Assembly: GCF_009695655.1 (NCBI RefSeq)
Contig: NZ_VUNM01000010.1
Span: 1 to 60,096, forward strand
Direction: 5' to 3'
Source of the DNA: Sharpea porci
GTDB taxonomy: Bacteria; Bacillota_I; Bacilli_A; Erysipelotrichales; Coprobacillaceae
Length of the DNA stretch: 60,096 nucleotides
Shown here: in pieces, positions 6,313 to 39,137 of the stretch
How the letters are laid out: each line of letters opens with the position of its first letter
Numbering within the stretch: the stretch's first letter is position 1
Made by a program: the position numbers and the translations under genes
Notes under the pieces: model-generated
Told to the model about the DNA's origin: nothing
Seen by the model: only the letters and a program-made list of their open reading frames with translations
The model's database searches: none

Positions 6313-6486
6313 TCAATCATAAATGCATTCAGAAAGCATTGCCTTAATTTTGTAGAAGAGACATTCGGATATGCCGTTCTCATAGCAGTATCTTCTGATG
6401 ATGAGTCCGCTTTCTTTCTAATCCTCAATGATTGCAGGCCAGTTGTATCGCTTGCAGTTGTTTGGTGTTAATCTGTATAGATCCAT
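6313..6486 (-). pseudogene. IS66-family TnpA-like remnant
   Basis: The minus-strand frame from the ATG at 6484-6486 reads a short helix-turn-helix protein. Key strings are YNWPAIIED, then a stop, then KESGLIIRRYCYENGISEC and FYKIKAML. This resembles the small TnpA accessory protein of IS66 elements (typically W-x2-II...SG-I--FC--NGIS---FY-W). In-frame stops interrupt it and the TnpB/TnpC genes are not intact nearby. Confidence 0.5.
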
Positions 6487-30596: not shown

Positions 30597-33500
30597 TTAT
30601 TGCTCATTATGTGTCTTCAAAAGCATATAGAATACAAAACCTAAGAAGCCCACAAAGGCTAATAGCATCGTCAGTATTCCAAAATGAGTACCTGTAGGTA
30701 CTACACCATCTTTGTGATTAATGAATGTGATTGTATCATTATCAACAGCCTTACTCATATTATCAGCATTAACCACATTACCATCATTAATATTATGAGA
30801 AACTTCATAATCAGTTTCTGCTTCTTTAATGCTGTAGGATGCTGTCTTAGGTACATTCTTAAAGACAACAGATTCATTGTGTTTAAGTGTAATTTCTGCA
30901 CTTAGGGTATTGTTGTTGCTTGCAGGAGCACGTCGAGGTGCGACTGTATTTGGCTTTAAATGCGTACTCTTCTTGATGACTTTAGGATTGTTCTTTGATG
31001 AAGCATTGAAGGTATCAACCTGAATTTCTTCATCATCAGAAACATTATTAAATGTTACAGTAAATGTAAATGGCTTACTATAATCACCAAACGAACCTGT
31101 AACACGGTTTTTCAGTACAATATTAGCTGCTTCAGGTAATGCATTATTGAATGTAACATCAATATCATTGCCTTCAACAACTGTTTCTTCATCAGTAGCT
31201 AAATCAACATAAGCTTTATCATTAGTTTTCGTCTTCTGATAGCTTCCAGCAACAAGATCATAGCTTGCCTTACCTCTATTTGCCTTTTCAGTTATTTGGT
31301 ATTTTGTAGTAGCAGGCACATTCTTAAATGTCACCTCATCACCACTTGCAAGCTTAGCATTCACTACAGCCTTACCATTATCATCAGGTGTAATCATACC
31401 TAAATCTGACATAAAGCCTTCATTAGGAATATTTGAGAAGTTAATATTGAATTCAAACTTATCATCACTCTTATTACCACTTGTTGTCTTCTTGAGTGTT
31501 AGGTTCTGATAGAACTCTAGCTTGTTTGTGAATGTCACAACAATATTCTCATCTTTGTCCACATTCTCCCAGGCTGTAGAAAGAGCGGTGTTAGTAGCAT
31601 CAACCATATCAGCAGACTGTGCTGTCTTCCCACCTGTAATCTTATAAGAAGGCTTGTATTCACCTGCTGCTTCAGTAATTTTATACTGTGCACCAACAGG
31701 AAGATTATCAATCTTTAATTCTTCATCCTTCTTCATCGTTACATGCACATAGCCATTACCATCACTATCTGACGTAAACACATTATTACCTAGCTTATAC
31801 TCTGTATTCTTTTCAAGCTTCTTGAATGCAACATCAAAGTCATATGTATGTTCATTGACAGAGAAACCTTCGACCTGTTTCTTAAGTGTAAAGCCGTTTG
31901 TTTCTACATCTAGATTCTTTTCTTGATAGTGGTTTTCAAACAAAACATCAGCATGATAATTATCATCATTTAACGTTCCACTTGCATTCTTATTAGTAGT
32001 ACTGAACTCTTCATACTCATTTTCTTTTACTAAATATGTTGTTCCTTCAGGTATATCCGTCAAGTGTGCTGTTTCTCCGTCTTTTAAGCTTACTCTACCG
32101 ATACCATCATTAAATACAACATCACCAAATATTTGTGTACCTTTAATATTTTTTCCAGATAGTATAATTGTGAAAAGGTAATGCATATCTTTATATTTAT
32201 TTGGAACTTCAATTGTCGGTGAATCTTCAGTTACTTTATATTCTTTCTTTGTGGAAGGTATGACTTCCCCATTTTCATTGAAGCCAGTTACAATTGCATA
32301 GTAGCCATACCCATCTCCAATACCACCATAATCAGATCTAAATCCAAAAGTAACACTGTCTCCATCAATATCATATTCTTTAGTGTTACTTGTATTTGTA
32401 TGATTGCCGCCGCCAAGCTTTCCTGAGATTGAGGTGCTGTGATTATTTGAAGCTGTGTAGTTTGGATGTTTTCCTTGCCACATGCATACCCAGTCACAAT
32501 CACTTGACTCACCACCATAAATTATCTTCACATGAAGTTTGGATGCGCCATCAATTGTTACAACATCGTTTATATTCATGCCTTCTAAATAGTTACCATT
32601 TTGGATTCCTTCATCATTTATATTAGGTGTATGAGAGTATTTAGTTACTGGAATATCAGTCAATACCAATTGTTTACCATCCACCTTCTTAGTTATATCA
32701 ATACTATAGTAATCTTTCTTTACTACTCTTGTATCAGTATTTACGATTTCCGAAGGATTTTCTTTTGTAGTTACAACTGGATTATTCTCTTCATTCGAAG
32801 ATGTATAGCCTTCTACAGTATCTTCCCATGCATAATAAGTTGCATGATCATCAGCAACATTAAATTCATAAGTCCAAACATCACCATCTTTAGTTATTGT
32901 AGCATCAGTATCAGATGAATAAGTAGCCCTATCTTCAGCATGAACTTCAGTTATAATACTCAAGTTCTTAAATAGTGAAATAATATTTGATCCGATTTCT
33001 TTTAGTGTCTCAATGAATCCAATGTTATTCGCTTTTGCGCCTGTTGAAGTAGCCTTATAAGTGAAATAACCTTTACCATCACCACCATAATAAGCTTTAC
33101 TCATACCAGTTTCACTAGGATCATAATTAGGTAGCTTATAGCTATATCCAAACATATCCCCATTCCAATCCGATATATTAAGCCATGGCTCAGAAACATA
33201 TATTCTTTCTAAATTATCACAATAAGAAAACATAATCGATACCTCACAAGAGTAAGTAGCATAACGATTAACATGCATATTTGAAAGATCTAATTCTTTT
33301 AATTTTTCACAACCAGAAAACATGCCATTCATATAACGTGCAGCTTCAAAATGAGAAACGTCCAAAGTTTCAACGTTTTTCACGCCATTAAACATATATT
33401 CCATACTATATATTGATGGAGTGTTAAAAGAAGATACATCCAGAGACTTTAACGAAATACATGCATAAAACATTCCGTTCATATCTTCAACTTTAGCAGT

Positions 33501-36500
33501 ATTAAATGAAGATAAATCTAATGAGATAAGTGAACTACAGTCTCTAAACATATAAGACATATCTATAACATTTGATGTGTCAAACCTTGAAAGATCTAAG
33601 GCTTTTAAATCTGAACAAGAATCAAACATACAAGACATATTTTCAACGTTTGAAGTAACAAAAGATGATAGATCCAATGATTCTAAAAGTGAACATTCAC
33701 AAAACATTCCGTACATATTTTTAACATTTCTGGTATCAAAGGAAGAAATGTTTAGTTTATTTAATTTAGAACAGCTTCCAAACATATACTTGAAGGAAAT
33801 CACCTTTGACGTATTAAATTTAGAAAGATCTAATGATATCAATGAGGAGCAACGATAAAAAATTCTAGTCATATTTTCAACATTAGCTGTATCAAAATTA
33901 GAGACATTTATAGACATTAGAGAATTGCAATCACTAAACATTCCTTCCATATTTGTGATTTTGCTAGTATCAAAATTAGATAAATCTATTGATTCTAATG
34001 CTTTATTGCTAGAATACATTTCCTGCATACTTGTCATAAAAGCAGTATCTATTTTATTTGTATCTATCTTAGTAGCCTTATCAAAATATGAGAACATATA
34101 TTTTACTGCATCCGACATCCTTATCGTTTGTGCATTCGTCCAATAATAAATAACGTTATCTTTTTGCCAGCCATATATCTTATAACGTGCATTTGCATCA
34201 TAGAAATTTTTATCAAGTCGAACTGCATTATTCGGCACTTCGGTTTCCGAAATATCACTATACAAAATCGAAGTCACACTATTAGCTTTAAAATTTAAAA
34301 TATGAGAAAATGGACTATTTCTAATTTTGGAAGAATAATTGACTTTATCATTCAAATTATCCTCCCTCCACTCCACATAAGAAGGAATTTTTGTGATATC
34401 TGTAGTGATATGAATAACAGGTGTTGGTCTTTCTTCATTTGTCTTGTTGTCTTTCCAGACCTTCTTGACAATGATTTTGCCATCTTTAATCTTCTCGTTA
34501 TCTACACGATATTTATTGTTAGTGTTATGTTCTTGACCATCAATTGTGTATTTACCGTCTTTCTCAATAACGACTACATGCTTGGTGCTTTCAGCCGTAT
34601 ATCCAGTTGGAGCTTTTGTTTCCTGAAGGATATATGTACCTGACTCAAGGCCAGCGAATGTCACAAGCCCATCAGCTCCTGATATAGATGTTTTATTAAC
34701 CTTTGTTCCTTTATTAGATGTTCCTTTCAAAGAGAACTCTGCACCTTGGAGTAATGAGTCATCATATGATGACTGCTTTGAAATTTGAATTGTATGATAT
34801 GGTTCATTATAAATAATGATGTTGCCTGTCTTATCAGTTACTGCATCCTGTATGCCTGCATTACCCTTGTCATCAATAATAGCAGTATATTCTACATCAT
34901 TAGTAATATAGCCTTCTGGTGTACCCACTTCCTTAAGCGTATAGACACCATATTCTATATTTTCAAATCTAACAGTTCCATAATCATCCGATGTCGCATA
35001 TAAAAGCACATCATTCTTGTAAGCTGATTTACCAGTCAGACTAAAACGTGCATTTTTGACACCTAAAGCCTTATTAACTAAATCTCGTTTTTCAAATACA
35101 ACATCACCATGTATTCTTGGATCATCTGTCAATGTAACGACATTGTCATTCTTTGTAATTTCTTCATTGCTATTCTTATAGACAGTAAACTGACCATTAT
35201 CATTGATAATGACTTTGTATTCTGTCTTGTCTAGAAAATAATCAGCTGGAGAATATGTTTCTTTGAGTGTATATGTACCTTTTTCAACATCTTCAAATAC
35301 AAGATTGCCCTTTGCATTTGTTGTTTCAGTGACATCAATCTTAGTATTGTAATCTGATGTACCATAAAGACGATACTTGGCGCCTTCAACAGAATCATCG
35401 CTTTCAGATGACTTCTTATGGATATTAACATTGCCTGTCATCTTGAATGATACCGTTGTATAGTCATGATGGATCAACGCTGTTTTCTCATTATCTTTAT
35501 TGTCTATTGTTGTATCTCTGACGTAGATATTATTGTAGGAATTCTGATAACCATCAGCCTTGCCTTCAACTTTATCAGGTGCCTGCATATAAAGAACGGC
35601 ATTAAGCGTTTCACCTTCATTAAGTATATAGTCGCCACCATTAGTATTCTTAGAACAATCAATAACTATTGCTTTTACAGAAGAAAGTTTTATATTTTCA
35701 TCAAACTTCTTCCATATTGTACTGTCATTGAGATCATTGTTGTTGTCTATTGAAAGGTTGTTTTTTTCACTATAGTAAACAACAGGAGCGATACCTTTAG
35801 ACTTCAGTTGTGTAAGATCCAATGAACTTAATGTTCCATGCCAGTCTGATTTCTTGCCATTAACTAAATAGTTCTCAAGTGAATCATAGATAATGATATT
35901 CTTTCTCTTTGTCGTATAAGAGTTGACAAGACGTGTTTCATAAGAATACTCATCTTTACCTGATACAAATGTATTGTATGAATAAGCACTTTCCTTAGCT
36001 GACTTGACTTGAAGCTGTAATCCTGTAAGTGATGAGGCAATGTTGGAGATACTGTATGGATCTTCATCATAGAGGAATTTGGCTGCATTAGTTTGTTTAT
36101 CTAGGTCTATCATGTAGGCCTTATTAGCTGCTGACATGTTACCACCATTATCCGCAAAGCCATTTGTAATATCCTCGTTACCTGTTTCATAAGCTACTGG
36201 GTTGATGATGTTTTCGCCATAGTCCTTCACAGATTCCCAGCTCATCATAACACTCAGATATAGGCTGTAATACTTTGCTTGTAATGGAATATCAACAATG
36301 ATGAGATCTCGCCCACTCTGCATATAGTTCTGCTTGATTTCATAACTGAAGTCATTCTTGCTTAGTGTGCCCTTTTCAGTTTCAACCTGTAACGTACCTT
36401 TCTTAAGATGTGTACCTTTAGGTAAAAGATCATAGAAACGTCCTGAATCCTGTACAAGATAACTTGTCTTGTCATCAGTTTTAATTGTTTCCTTCTGGTC

Positions 36501-38462
36501 AATCTTCCATCTTAATTCATAAGCCTTCTTAGCTGGATTATTTCCAGTTGAGAGAAGATGCTTGTTGAGGCTTGAGGATTTCTCTGGTCCGATAGCTCTA
36601 TCAAATGCATAACTTCTTACTGAAGAAATCACATTATTCTGAGAATCTGTGATTTTCGAGTCTGAGAAATTTTGTAATTGAATAATATTCTTGTCTTTAA
36701 TCTTAGAATCAATATATTTAGAGCTCTTCAAACTCATATACGGATAGATTTCAATAAATGTATGATAATGTGCATTGGATGTTGTAACTCTGAATCCAGT
36801 CACGTTTGATTCATTTGTAAAAGTGATTTTCGCACTTGTTAATGTAGAAACAATTTTGGTGTTGTCAACATGAGCACCGCTAGTATCATATGAAGCTACT
36901 TTCTGCCATTCTCCATCATTATTACGCACCCAGAAATAAATTGGATCTTCATTCTTTCCCTGCGTATCCACAACGAATTTTTGTTCAGCTGAATCGAATT
37001 TACGAATTTCATACTTGACAGACCAATCTACAGAGGTATAATGATAGTCATCTTTATCAAGTTTTCTTGCATCTTCAGGAATATTATAATAATGCGCATT
37101 ATTTTTCACATTATCCGTGATATTCTCATCCAGATAGAAAGTATCTGTCGTTAATTCATAATTAACCTTGTTCTTGCCATAGTTATCAGGATTGTCTCTA
37201 CTTCCGCTAACCGTATATGGATAAGGATAAGATAACAAATTCGTATAATATTTAAACTTATCTATAGTTTTACCAGATTGAAGTTGATCAAGGTTATAAG
37301 AAGCAAAATCCCAGTAATAATGAAATTTATCATACCAGTTATTATTCCCATAATTCTGACTGCTGAAACGTCCTACTGGATAAACAAACTTAGGTGTATC
37401 CCATCTAAATTCCTGACTGGATGAAGCAACTGTAGGTGTATCCACCTGATCAACAGGTGTGACTGTTGCCTTTACATCATTGTCTAAGGTATAGAAGTCA
37501 TCTTTCTCATACTTTACAGGATCATAAGCAGTAAGAACATAGCTTGTATTTTCATCATTTGTTTGATTGTTGAGAACGTTTTGCGTACTAAACTTTAAAC
37601 TACCACTTCTATATCCAACAACAAGTAGTCCATCAGTCTTAGGATTGTCTTCAAGAGTCAAGTTATAAGGCTGAGTTAGGGGTTCTTTGAGCTTTGTATC
37701 AATCTGCCATATGAGAAACCATTTGTCTTTTGTGTTTTCAGGTTGAGTTCCCCAGCTTTTGTCCCATTGACGATAGATTTTTTGAGGAATTTGCTTTTTA
37801 ACTGAGAAAATGGTTGCTGAAGTATTGATGTAGACAGGAATCATAGCTGTATCAGCTGTTTCTGTTTTACCATTATTTATGAGTGAAAGATGTGCCTGGA
37901 ATGGATCTGAAGCTTCCATGTCCTTATAGCTAAAAGTATTTTGGCTTGTTAGATAAGATACTTCGATATAGCCATGGCTACTGCCTGAGAGAACATGTCT
38001 GTTGTAAATAATGATATTGTTGTGATCATCACTTTCCTTATAGGCATAGTCAACCTTATGAGAAGAATCTTCTTCCTCTTCTTTAACAGCTTCTTCTTCA
38101 CTTGGTACTGAGAGCTCTATGTAATCCGCATATTCACCATTACGATTCTTGAGAAGTCTCTTTGGAATAGTAATCTGAAAGCCATTTTCAACAATGTCAT
38201 GTTCTGCTGAAGTATCATAGTTGATTCTATAAGTGAAACGATGCTTGTCATAAGTTGTAGTTGGAGTCCAGACATAGCGACCTTGGTCATCTAACTTAGC
38301 GCCACTAGCTACCTGGACACTGAAATTGTCTATGGCAGTTGTTTTTGTATCTTCTGCCTTGACTGGTGCAGCATTAGGTATAAGCAACGAGACAACCATC
38401 AACAAGCTCATGCCTAAGGCTACTATGATATGTAATGTCTTGTTCATGAATCTTTTCATCAT
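30597..38462 (-). CDS. Giant CnaB/BspA-type sortase-anchored surface protein
   Basis: Cell-wall adhesin of 2,621 residues. Signal peptide 1 to about 36 (cleavage after VKA). Residues 37 to about 1000 look like an adhesin head. Three CnaB (SpaA-like) domains follow at about 1010-1320. A fourth CnaB-like unit opens with KIIVKKVWKDN (about 1324) and is completed only near 1850-1905 (WTYEFNVADDHATYYAWEDTVEGYTSSN). Between lies a BspA-type repeat block (about 1465-1740) of roughly nine 23-24-residue units built on LDLSxFDTSxVxxMxxMF. A glycine-rich, CUB-like stretch sits at about 1930-2075, then three DUF7601/FctA-like pilin domains to about 2580. The sorting signal is VVPTGTHFG, a hydrophobic helix and a short tail. 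No sortase gene is nearby. The start overlaps the upstream stop (ATGA). Confidence 0.88.
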   Translation of the reverse strand: MMKRFMNKTLHIIVALGMSLLMVVSLLIPNAAPVKAEDTKTTAIDNFSVQVASGAKLDDQGRYVWTPTTTYDKHRFTYRINYDTSAEHDIVENGFQITIPKRLLKNRNGEYADYIELSVPSEEEAVKEEEEDSSHKVDYAYKESDDHNNIIIYNRHVLSGSSHGYIEVSYLTSQNTFSYKDMEASDPFQAHLSLINNGKTETADTAMIPVYINTSATIFSVKKQIPQKIYRQWDKSWGTQPENTKDKWFLIWQIDTKLKEPLTQPYNLTLEDNPKTDGLLVVGYRSGSLKFSTQNVLNNQTNDENTSYVLTAYDPVKYEKDDFYTLDNDVKATVTPVDQVDTPTVASSSQEFRWDTPKFVYPVGRFSSQNYGNNNWYDKFHYYWDFASYNLDQLQSGKTIDKFKYYTNLLSYPYPYTVSGSRDNPDNYGKNKVNYELTTDTFYLDENITDNVKNNAHYYNIPEDARKLDKDDYHYTSVDWSVKYEIRKFDSAEQKFVVDTQGKNEDPIYFWVRNNDGEWQKVASYDTSGAHVDNTKIVSTLTSAKITFTNESNVTGFRVTTSNAHYHTFIEIYPYMSLKSSKYIDSKIKDKNIIQLQNFSDSKITDSQNNVISSVRSYAFDRAIGPEKSSSLNKHLLSTGNNPAKKAYELRWKIDQKETIKTDDKTSYLVQDSGRFYDLLPKGTHLKKGTLQVETEKGTLSKNDFSYEIKQNYMQSGRDLIIVDIPLQAKYYSLYLSVMMSWESVKDYGENIINPVAYETGNEDITNGFADNGGNMSAANKAYMIDLDKQTNAAKFLYDEDPYSISNIASSLTGLQLQVKSAKESAYSYNTFVSGKDEYSYETRLVNSYTTKRKNIIIYDSLENYLVNGKKSDWHGTLSSLDLTQLKSKGIAPVVYYSEKNNLSIDNNNDLNDSTIWKKFDENIKLSSVKAIVIDCSKNTNGGDYILNEGETLNAVLYMQAPDKVEGKADGYQNSYNNIYVRDTTIDNKDNEKTALIHHDYTTVSFKMTGNVNIHKKSSESDDSVEGAKYRLYGTSDYNTKIDVTETTNAKGNLVFEDVEKGTYTLKETYSPADYFLDKTEYKVIINDNGQFTVYKNSNEEITKNDNVVTLTDDPRIHGDVVFEKRDLVNKALGVKNARFSLTGKSAYKNDVLLYATSDDYGTVRFENIEYGVYTLKEVGTPEGYITNDVEYTAIIDDKGNAGIQDAVTDKTGNIIIYNEPYHTIQISKQSSYDDSLLQGAEFSLKGTSNKGTKVNKTSISGADGLVTFAGLESGTYILQETKAPTGYTAESTKHVVVIEKDGKYTIDGQEHNTNNKYRVDNEKIKDGKIIVKKVWKDNKTNEERPTPVIHITTDITKIPSYVEWREDNLNDKVNYSSKIRNSPFSHILNFKANSVTSILYSDISETEVPNNAVRLDKNFYDANARYKIYGWQKDNVIYYWTNAQTIRMSDAVKYMFSYFDKATKIDTNKIDTAFMTSMQEMYSSNKALESIDLSNFDTSKITNMEGMFSDCNSLMSINVSNFDTANVENMTRIFYRCSSLISLDLSKFNTSKVISFKYMFGSCSKLNKLNISSFDTRNVKNMYGMFCECSLLESLDLSSFVTSNVENMSCMFDSCSDLKALDLSRFDTSNVIDMSYMFRDCSSLISLDLSSFNTAKVEDMNGMFYACISLKSLDVSSFNTPSIYSMEYMFNGVKNVETLDVSHFEAARYMNGMFSGCEKLKELDLSNMHVNRYATYSCEVSIMFSYCDNLERIYVSEPWLNISDWNGDMFGYSYKLPNYDPSETGMSKAYYGGDGKGYFTYKATSTGAKANNIGFIETLKEIGSNIISLFKNLSIITEVHAEDRATYSSDTDATITKDGDVWTYEFNVADDHATYYAWEDTVEGYTSSNEENNPVVTTKENPSEIVNTDTRVVKKDYYSIDITKKVDGKQLVLTDIPVTKYSHTPNINDEGIQNGNYLEGMNINDVVTIDGASKLHVKIIYGGESSDCDWVCMWQGKHPNYTASNNHSTSISGKLGGGNHTNTSNTKEYDIDGDSVTFGFRSDYGGIGDGYGYYAIVTGFNENGEVIPSTKKEYKVTEDSPTIEVPNKYKDMHYLFTIILSGKNIKGTQIFGDVVFNDGIGRVSLKDGETAHLTDIPEGTTYLVKENEYEEFSTTNKNASGTLNDDNYHADVLFENHYQEKNLDVETNGFTLKKQVEGFSVNEHTYDFDVAFKKLEKNTEYKLGNNVFTSDSDGNGYVHVTMKKDEELKIDNLPVGAQYKITEAAGEYKPSYKITGGKTAQSADMVDATNTALSTAWENVDKDENIVVTFTNKLEFYQNLTLKKTTSGNKSDDKFEFNINFSNIPNEGFMSDLGMITPDDNGKAVVNAKLASGDEVTFKNVPATTKYQITEKANRGKASYDLVAGSYQKTKTNDKAYVDLATDEETVVEGNDIDVTFNNALPEAANIVLKNRVTGSFGDYSKPFTFTVTFNNVSDDEEIQVDTFNASSKNNPKVIKKSTHLKPNTVAPRRAPASNNNTLSAEITLKHNESVVFKNVPKTASYSIKEAETDYEVSHNINDGNVVNADNMSKAVDNDTITFINHKDGVVPTGTHFGILTMLLAFVGFLGFVFYMLLKTHNEQ

Positions 38463-39013
38463 ATGTCCGTTCCTCTCTTATTTTGTAAGTATTTTATTAA
38501 GTAATAAAATAAGGCAAGTGCCGAGAGAAACAAAGCAACGATGTATTTCATGATACTTGTTGCATCTTCAGTCTTTACATGTTTTGTCTTCTTAGATACA
38601 ACATTCTTTTCTTGTTTGATTGTGTTGTTAGTAACGTTTGAGCCAAAGATGATATCCGTCTTATTTATGCCATCTTTACTCGCATAAATAGCTGATTCCA
38701 TCTTGCCATCCGCATTTCTAGTTACAACAACAGTTGTGTGGTAGGTTGTGCCCTTGTCATCAGTAATCAGATAGTGGTAGTTATCTGCCTTGGTAATTGG
38801 AATGACAAAGGACTTTGTTTCATTATTGAGCGTCAGGTTTTCCGTACTAGGAAGTGGGGAATCCGTAGAGGATATTGTCACTTTATGAGACGTATTTCCC
38901 TTTGCGGTAATAGGCAATGTAATTGTATGTTTAGAGGCATGAACACTGCCCATACCAAGCGTCAAGAAAAGCATCATCCATCCTAGCAGGATATTCGTTT
39001 TCTTTCTTTTCAT
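38459..39013 (-). CDS. Small exported partner of the giant surface protein
   Basis: Protein of 184 residues from the ATG at 39013, which has GGAGGG 6-7 nt upstream. It has an N-terminal signal peptide (KRKKTNILLGWMMLFLTLGMGSVHA), one pilin-like beta domain (about 27-125, with NYHYLITDDKGTTYHTTVVVTR resembling FctA/Spy0128-type domains), a Lys-rich linker and a C-terminal membrane segment SIMKYIVALFLSALALFYYLI. There is no PTG-type sorting motif before that segment, so it is probably membrane-held rather than sortase-processed. Its stop overlaps the start of the giant gene, indicating coupled translation and a joint role. Confidence 0.7.
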   Translation of the reverse strand: MKRKKTNILLGWMMLFLTLGMGSVHASKHTITLPITAKGNTSHKVTISSTDSPLPSTENLTLNNETKSFVIPITKADNYHYLITDDKGTTYHTTVVVTRNADGKMESAIYASKDGINKTDIIFGSNVTNNTIKQEKNVVSKKTKHVKTEDATSIMKYIVALFLSALALFYYLIKYLQNKRGTDI

Positions 39014-39137
39014 TTTCCCTCCATTAAAGAAAGCATATTCTGCGAATGTAATGTTTTCATGAGATGAAGGCATACATTGATTGGTCAATAAGAGAAATAT
39101 CTTGTTTAGGCGGTGGAATATGCATCAGTCACTGAAT

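Follow-up and report, generated by a model that had tools for sequence, protein, structure and literature searches.

A BspA-type leucine-rich module lies within a split CnaB domain of a giant Sharpea surface adhesin

Results and Discussion

Sequence comparisons confirm that Sharpea, a gut bacterium, has a giant surface adhesin in which one CnaB domain is split in two by an insert. The insert is a BspA/DUF285 leucine-rich module. The adhesin is encoded in the window, the whole 60,096-nucleotide stretch of Sharpea porci DNA that was analyzed; it has Pfam matches to SpaA, DUF285, DUF7601, and DUF5979 and carries a VPTGT sorting signal. The features of the protein are listed in Table 1. It is most probably a tip-type adhesin of a sortase-assembled pilus, in which the CnaB domain acts as a socket and the BspA leucine-rich repeat (LRR) module is spliced between strands two and three.

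Table 1. Features of the giant adhesin and the adjoining gene, in window coordinates
Feature	Position	Strand	Remarks
Giant adhesin ORF, 2621 aa	30597..38462	-	signal peptide at N-terminus ending VKAED; C-terminal VPTGT and hydrophobic tail
N-terminal adhesin region, residues 40-1000	35463..38345	-	homologous over full length in slot-carrying relatives
Three SpaA (prealbumin-like) stalk domains, residues ~1009-1317	34512..35438	-	PF17802; boundaries by eye
CnaB first half, residues 1326-1360	34383..34487	-	Lys1334 at 34461-34463
Inserted BspA module, N-terminal cap, residues 1361-1465	34068..34382	-	
BspA/DUF285 leucine-rich repeats, ten 26-residue motif copies	33168..34067	-	
C-terminal cap and linker, residues 1766-1839	32946..33167	-	contains the protein's most hydrophobic interior 15-mer
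VHAED, signal-peptidase-site-like motif, residues 1840-1844	32931..32945	-	
CnaB second half, residues 1852-1911	32730..32909	-	Glu1880 at 32823-32825; Asn1908 at 32739-32741
DUF7601 first strand, residues 1920-1932, detached from remainder	32667..32705	-	joined 59.5 bits, profile 2-116
~120-aa domain inside DUF7601, CUB-like by eye	32280..32642	-	without Pfam or PDB family
Rest of interrupted DUF7601	31923..32183	-	alone 50.4 bits
Small FctA-like (weak) membrane-anchored protein	38459..39088	-	PF12892 16.6 bits, below cut-off 22.1

Two other loci bear on this protein family. The near-identical S. azabuensis DSM 18934 ortholog (L012, 6050-12886) stops about 350 residues early and has lost the sorting signal, which may be due to a frameshift, a strain difference, or an assembly error. 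A fourth BspA-bearing surface protein with another architecture is found in the same genome (L011, 2252-6169).

A CnaB domain in two halves

The break in the CnaB domain comes after its second strand. A sequence-only reading of this DNA had placed a CnaB-like start near residue 1324 and the second half about 500 residues further on; the first-half motif KDGKIIVKKVW was located from residue 1326 (window 34487) and the second-half motif WTYEFN from residue 1863 (window 32876). The span of 32800-34510 given in that reading had the correct ORF, strand, and motifs but ended slightly too soon, as the second half reaches approximately residue 1911 (window 32730).

When the two halves of the window protein were joined, they matched PF05738 (Cna_B) with 25.4 bits against a cut-off of 22.3, whereas single halves matched nothing in Pfam, which is the outcome that the sequence-only reading had anticipated for a search with the joined segments. 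The joined halves of two paralogs in the same genome, C15 and C42, and of a relative, G019, scored 23.0, 27.1, and 27.3 bits, respectively, against the same cut-off. Pfam Cna_B does not recognize the joined domain of G431 or the uninterrupted domain of G533. A second CnaB profile was made with proteins from other genomes that have CnaB domains in tandem. With this profile, the window halves scored 32.6 bits joined and 9.1 and 20.3 bits alone, and none of 1000 random partners on either side reached the joined score. Margins were less clear in the same random-partner control for C15, a goat homolog, G431, and G628. A looser control, with a less strict cut and partners taken from all domains, left the joined score unexceptional because other stalk domains matched as well; it was set aside as uninformative and the stricter control was used instead.

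A joined profile of ten domains had its best PDB matches in the B region of the S. aureus collagen adhesin Cna, 1d2p (E 5e-7) and 1d2o. The alignment to 1d2p runs unbroken across the join, where the two parts of Cna are only a few residues apart, and by it the insertion falls after the second strand and before the third. We take the strand names from the Cna B fold. The residues Lys1334, Glu1880, and Asn1908 form a candidate isopeptide triad. The Lys and Glu columns are invariant in all ten aligned domains and the Asn column in nine; in the tenth domain, from G014, an Asn stands where it is expected, although the aligner did not place it. Because this triad is conserved in relatives, an isopeptide bond would close the CnaB domain across about 490 residues.

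The BspA module in the slot

The insert matches DUF285 (PF03382) with an E-value of 1.5e-95. Its motif recurs ten times at intervals of exactly 26 residues, and the insert is completed by caps at both the N- and C-terminal ends and by a linker. The sequence-only reading was right about the BspA/DUF285 family of the module between the halves, but its count of nine repeats of 23-24 residues has to be corrected. The insert is a clear member of the BspA/DUF285 surface proteins; their repeats normally stand as separate domains, while in Sharpea they lie inside another domain. Going by what is known of the family, the LRR may present a binding face to a ligand.

The slot in relatives

The paralogs C15 and C42 have the identical split, one with a longer and one with a shorter LRR, and a BspA module also fills the slot in a second Sharpea genome. 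The same split was found in G019 of the same family, in a Clostridia MAG from goat ileum, and in G431, G494, G476, G614, and G628 of the same order. Across the paralogs, the second Sharpea genome, and at least seven other genomes, the BspA modules that fill the slot differ in length. The distance between the halves varies from ~280 to 820 residues (about 281-818) across family members.

Two relatives have a different slot content. In G533 the slot is empty, with the halves about 15 residues apart. This protein shares its entire N-terminal region (E 8e-221) and SpaA domains with the window adhesin. Its divergent CnaB domain matches the second-half profile (E 1.2e-7) and also the first-half profile (1.1e-15), which includes G533 itself among its twelve rows. 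In G014 the slot is filled by an InlB-type repeat and DUF6273, the latter just below the cut-off. Since relatives have it empty, filled with BspA, or filled with InlB and DUF6273, this is a genuine slot with exchangeable contents. The claim that a leucine-rich module is looped out of an isopeptide-type domain is supported, with the splits in relatives and the empty slot of G533 providing stronger evidence for it than the profile search.

No relative was found in the viral contigs searched, and a search of plasmids with the second half and the CUB-like domain gave no match. An apparent split in G469 was rejected, as its breaks are N runs in the assembly. A diversity-generating retroelement behind the DUF6273 filling of G014, a candidate prompted by the 3' position of the domain and the hairpin after the stop, was also rejected; the sole reverse transcriptase match in G014 resembles those of group II introns, and a search there for a template repeat came up empty. 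The G533 protein (L118, ORF residues ~1200-1480) has an extra insertion of about 270 residues in a SpaA domain, which from its sequence may be another stalk domain serving as host.

Chains divided at the split

In the window protein, both CnaB halves are encoded on one chain. In G014 and G448, the halves and with them the reactive residues are divided between two polypeptides, the second of which has its own signal peptide; the signal peptides suggest that these chains are secreted. Gene 1 of G014 stops directly after DUF6273 and has no sorting signal. Gene 2 begins about 60 bases further on, beyond an 11-bp hairpin, and encodes a strong signal peptide (hydrophobicity 2.7) followed at a short distance by the CnaB second half, stalk domains, and a sorting signal.

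The genus mates of G448 have a single chain of ~2420 aa, and in G448 itself this chain is in pieces. Chain C contains the N-terminal region, SpaA1, and SpaA2 minus its last strand. Chain B starts with a signal peptide and BspA, supplies the SpaA strand that chain C lacks, together with the Asn of that strand, and continues with SpaA3, the CnaB first half, and InlB-like and BspA repeats. Chain A has a signal peptide, DUF6273, the CnaB second half, DUF7601 domains, and a sorting signal. The exact partners of these chains are uncertain since chain C is on a separate contig from A and B, where another BspA gene with a signal peptide follows it. Altogether, G448 has at least three putatively secreted chains (L133 2985-5999, L117 951-4319, L132 3-5087), among which both SpaA2 and CnaB are divided. 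The chain genes are separated by short hairpins in G014 (L060 6150-6230) and, by eye, in G448 between chains A and B (C51 ~6405-6450). Judging from these gene arrangements, a natural join resembling that of Tag and Catcher is possible in G014 and G448.

The one-chain adhesin of the window could also end up as two chains if signal peptidase cuts VHA/ED before the second CnaB half, with the mature chains held together only by the CnaB fold and the isopeptide bond. This would supplement the split-domain reading, not replace it, and we consider it unlikely. In three of the proteins, no interior segment is more hydrophobic than the linker, which ranks 1 of 2500 in the window protein, and VHAED or VHAAD comes after it; VHAED also ends the N-terminal signal of C42. 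The pattern V[HN]A[EDAG][ED] occurs in seven of 11 linkers compared to a shuffle mean of 0.008, although it was picked after the data were seen and the sequences are related. Separate genes encode the two chains outright in G014, with its strong signal peptide, and in G448, with a signal-peptide-bearing chain. However, the hydrophobicity of the linkers (1.2-1.5) is lower than that of real signal peptides (2.5-3.1), and the motif is missing from the linkers of C42, the goat homolog, G614, and G628. VHAED may be a mere relic of the leader of a fused gene. The linker motif would be either the leader of a once separate gene or a place where the chain is still cut.

A broader proposal is that these tip adhesins consist of chains that are secreted separately or are cut by signal peptidase, and that the chains weld to one another by means of split stalk domains, with the Lys and Asn parts on successive chains, at each module insertion. 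We consider this rather unlikely. If true, the self-welded chains would do in nature what the engineered SpyTag/SpyCatcher join does, and binding heads could be swapped on a fixed stalk.

Structure model

AlphaFold was run on residues 1318-1912 with three input sequences, two of them nearly identical. The mean pLDDT was 68.8. The LRR was modeled confidently (pLDDT ~90), confidence was middling for the short strands of both CnaB halves, and pLDDT fell below 50 in the linker (model 455-535) and the last CnaB strand. The model does not contradict a closed CnaB fold, but it does not display the closure either. A VIA fold search of the model found the gut BspA-type LRR proteins 4fd0, 4fdw, 4h09, and 4gt6 (Z 16-19); it returned BspA-type and other LRR matches only and nothing on the CnaB part.

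The low confidence of the C-terminal strand, together with joined scores below the Pfam cut-off in some members, could mean that the halves are not one fold at all. They would then be a spare strand pair and a degenerate domain, left over from recombination and without functional closure. We regard this as very improbable given the joined-profile tests, the Lys, Glu, and Asn kept across wide divergence, and the uninterrupted homolog in G533. Least probable of all is that the BspA block is simply a further domain in tandem between two stalk domains and the split only appears from stalk-domain similarity: SpaA, DUF7601, and CnaB are all beta-sandwich stalk domains and other stalk pieces did equally well in the loose control, but the first half has only strands A and B before the LRR, the second half lacks them, and for the window protein the strict random-partner control and the empty-slot homolog also speak against it.

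In the split-domain reading, the chain would form strands A and B, exit into the LRR solenoid, and come back to finish the CnaB domain, so that the whole BspA module of about 480 residues separates the second strand from the third. A spontaneous bond would then form from Lys1334 on strand A to Asn1908 on the last strand, with Glu1880 assisting. This bond would lock both ends of the loop at its base, and the LRR would be held out sideways from the force-bearing stalk under shear. Relatives accept different modules, so the socket serves for the exchange of putative binding heads. By the same chemistry, two chains would be linked in the relatives with two genes.

Pilus operon context

The operons of C15 and C42 end with the giant adhesin, which comes after an FctA/DUF7601-type pilin, an S26 signal-peptidase-like protein, a sortase-like protein, and a small pilin. 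Pfam was used for the C15 pilin only and the remaining genes were assigned by sequence resemblance. The G014 operon has the same kinds of genes, assigned by Pfam. G014 and both paralogs thus show the Cpa-like combination of a sorting signal and a pilus operon with a sortase, an FctA-type pilin, and a SipA-like protein. The window copy has the sorting signal, and its only pilus gene is the small FctA-like gene directly upstream, at the place of the small pilin in the paralogs; a major pilin gene and the sortase-like and S26 genes accompany the paralogs and not the window copy. A pilus-tip location for the window adhesin is what we infer from this context.

The S26-like proteins of these operons (L135 2035-2520, L136 1884-2363, L134 109-621) seem, by eye, to be without the usual catalytic Lys. 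SipA of streptococcal pili is similarly without it.

Comparison with known systems

Adhesive domains inserted in the loops of CnaA or CnaB domains are already established in Cpa, RrgA, GBS104, and Mfa5 (PMC12617251, PMC7835359). FCT-type pili have the same operon gene content, and their tip protein Cpa has a thioester domain within an isopeptide domain (PMC6194298, PMC12617251, PMC7900414). Cpa (Spy0125), the FCT tip pilin of group A streptococci, resembles the Sharpea system in its operon, with a SipA-like signal peptidase homolog, a sortase, and an FctA-type pilin, and in having its adhesive domain between the bond-forming residues of an isopeptide domain. In contrast, the insert of Cpa is a thioester domain, which Pfam did not find in the Sharpea adhesin, and that of Sharpea is a BspA leucine-rich module. 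The Sharpea adhesin is also much larger, and its slot is seen to be exchangeable across species. In RrgA, GBS104, and Mfa5, a vWA binding domain interrupts an isopeptide-bonded domain between its strands B and C, with the Lys in the first segment and the Asn in the second (PMC7835359). The host is CnaA-like and the insert vWA in those proteins, compared to a CnaB-like host and an LRR insert in Sharpea. Leucine-rich repeats go unmentioned in a recent survey of isopeptide bonds, and no report of BspA in CnaB was found among open-licence papers.

SpyTag/SpyCatcher is an engineered split CnaB domain that is cut at the last strand. The domain described here is likewise a two-piece CnaB with the Lys and the Asn/Asp apart, in G014 and G448 on different proteins. 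Here, however, the split is natural and comes after strand B, and the bond between chains is only putative. If the two-chain forms do ligate themselves, the protein-ligation tool in widest use would have a natural equivalent that can be tested, and pilus tips would have a new route of assembly. With homologs that are empty, hold BspA modules of varied length, or have another filling, a CnaB domain of gut Firmicute adhesins is a reusable socket for putative binding heads, and the slot offers a loop-insertion point for protein engineering.

A second interrupted stalk domain

The DUF7601 domain that follows CnaB (residues 1920-2180) is also interrupted, by a domain of about 120 residues. Joined, its pieces cover almost the entire profile, with a higher score than the distal piece alone (Table 1). 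The same DUF7601 is uninterrupted in the goat homolog, and in G014 the extra domain precedes an intact DUF7601. An AlphaFold model of this region had a pLDDT of 39 and was unusable. The extra domain has no match in Pfam or the PDB, and its resemblance to CUB is a guess made by eye. At window 32280-32642 (KYSHTPN...YGYYAIVTG), it is conserved in the adhesins of Sharpea, G019, and G014.
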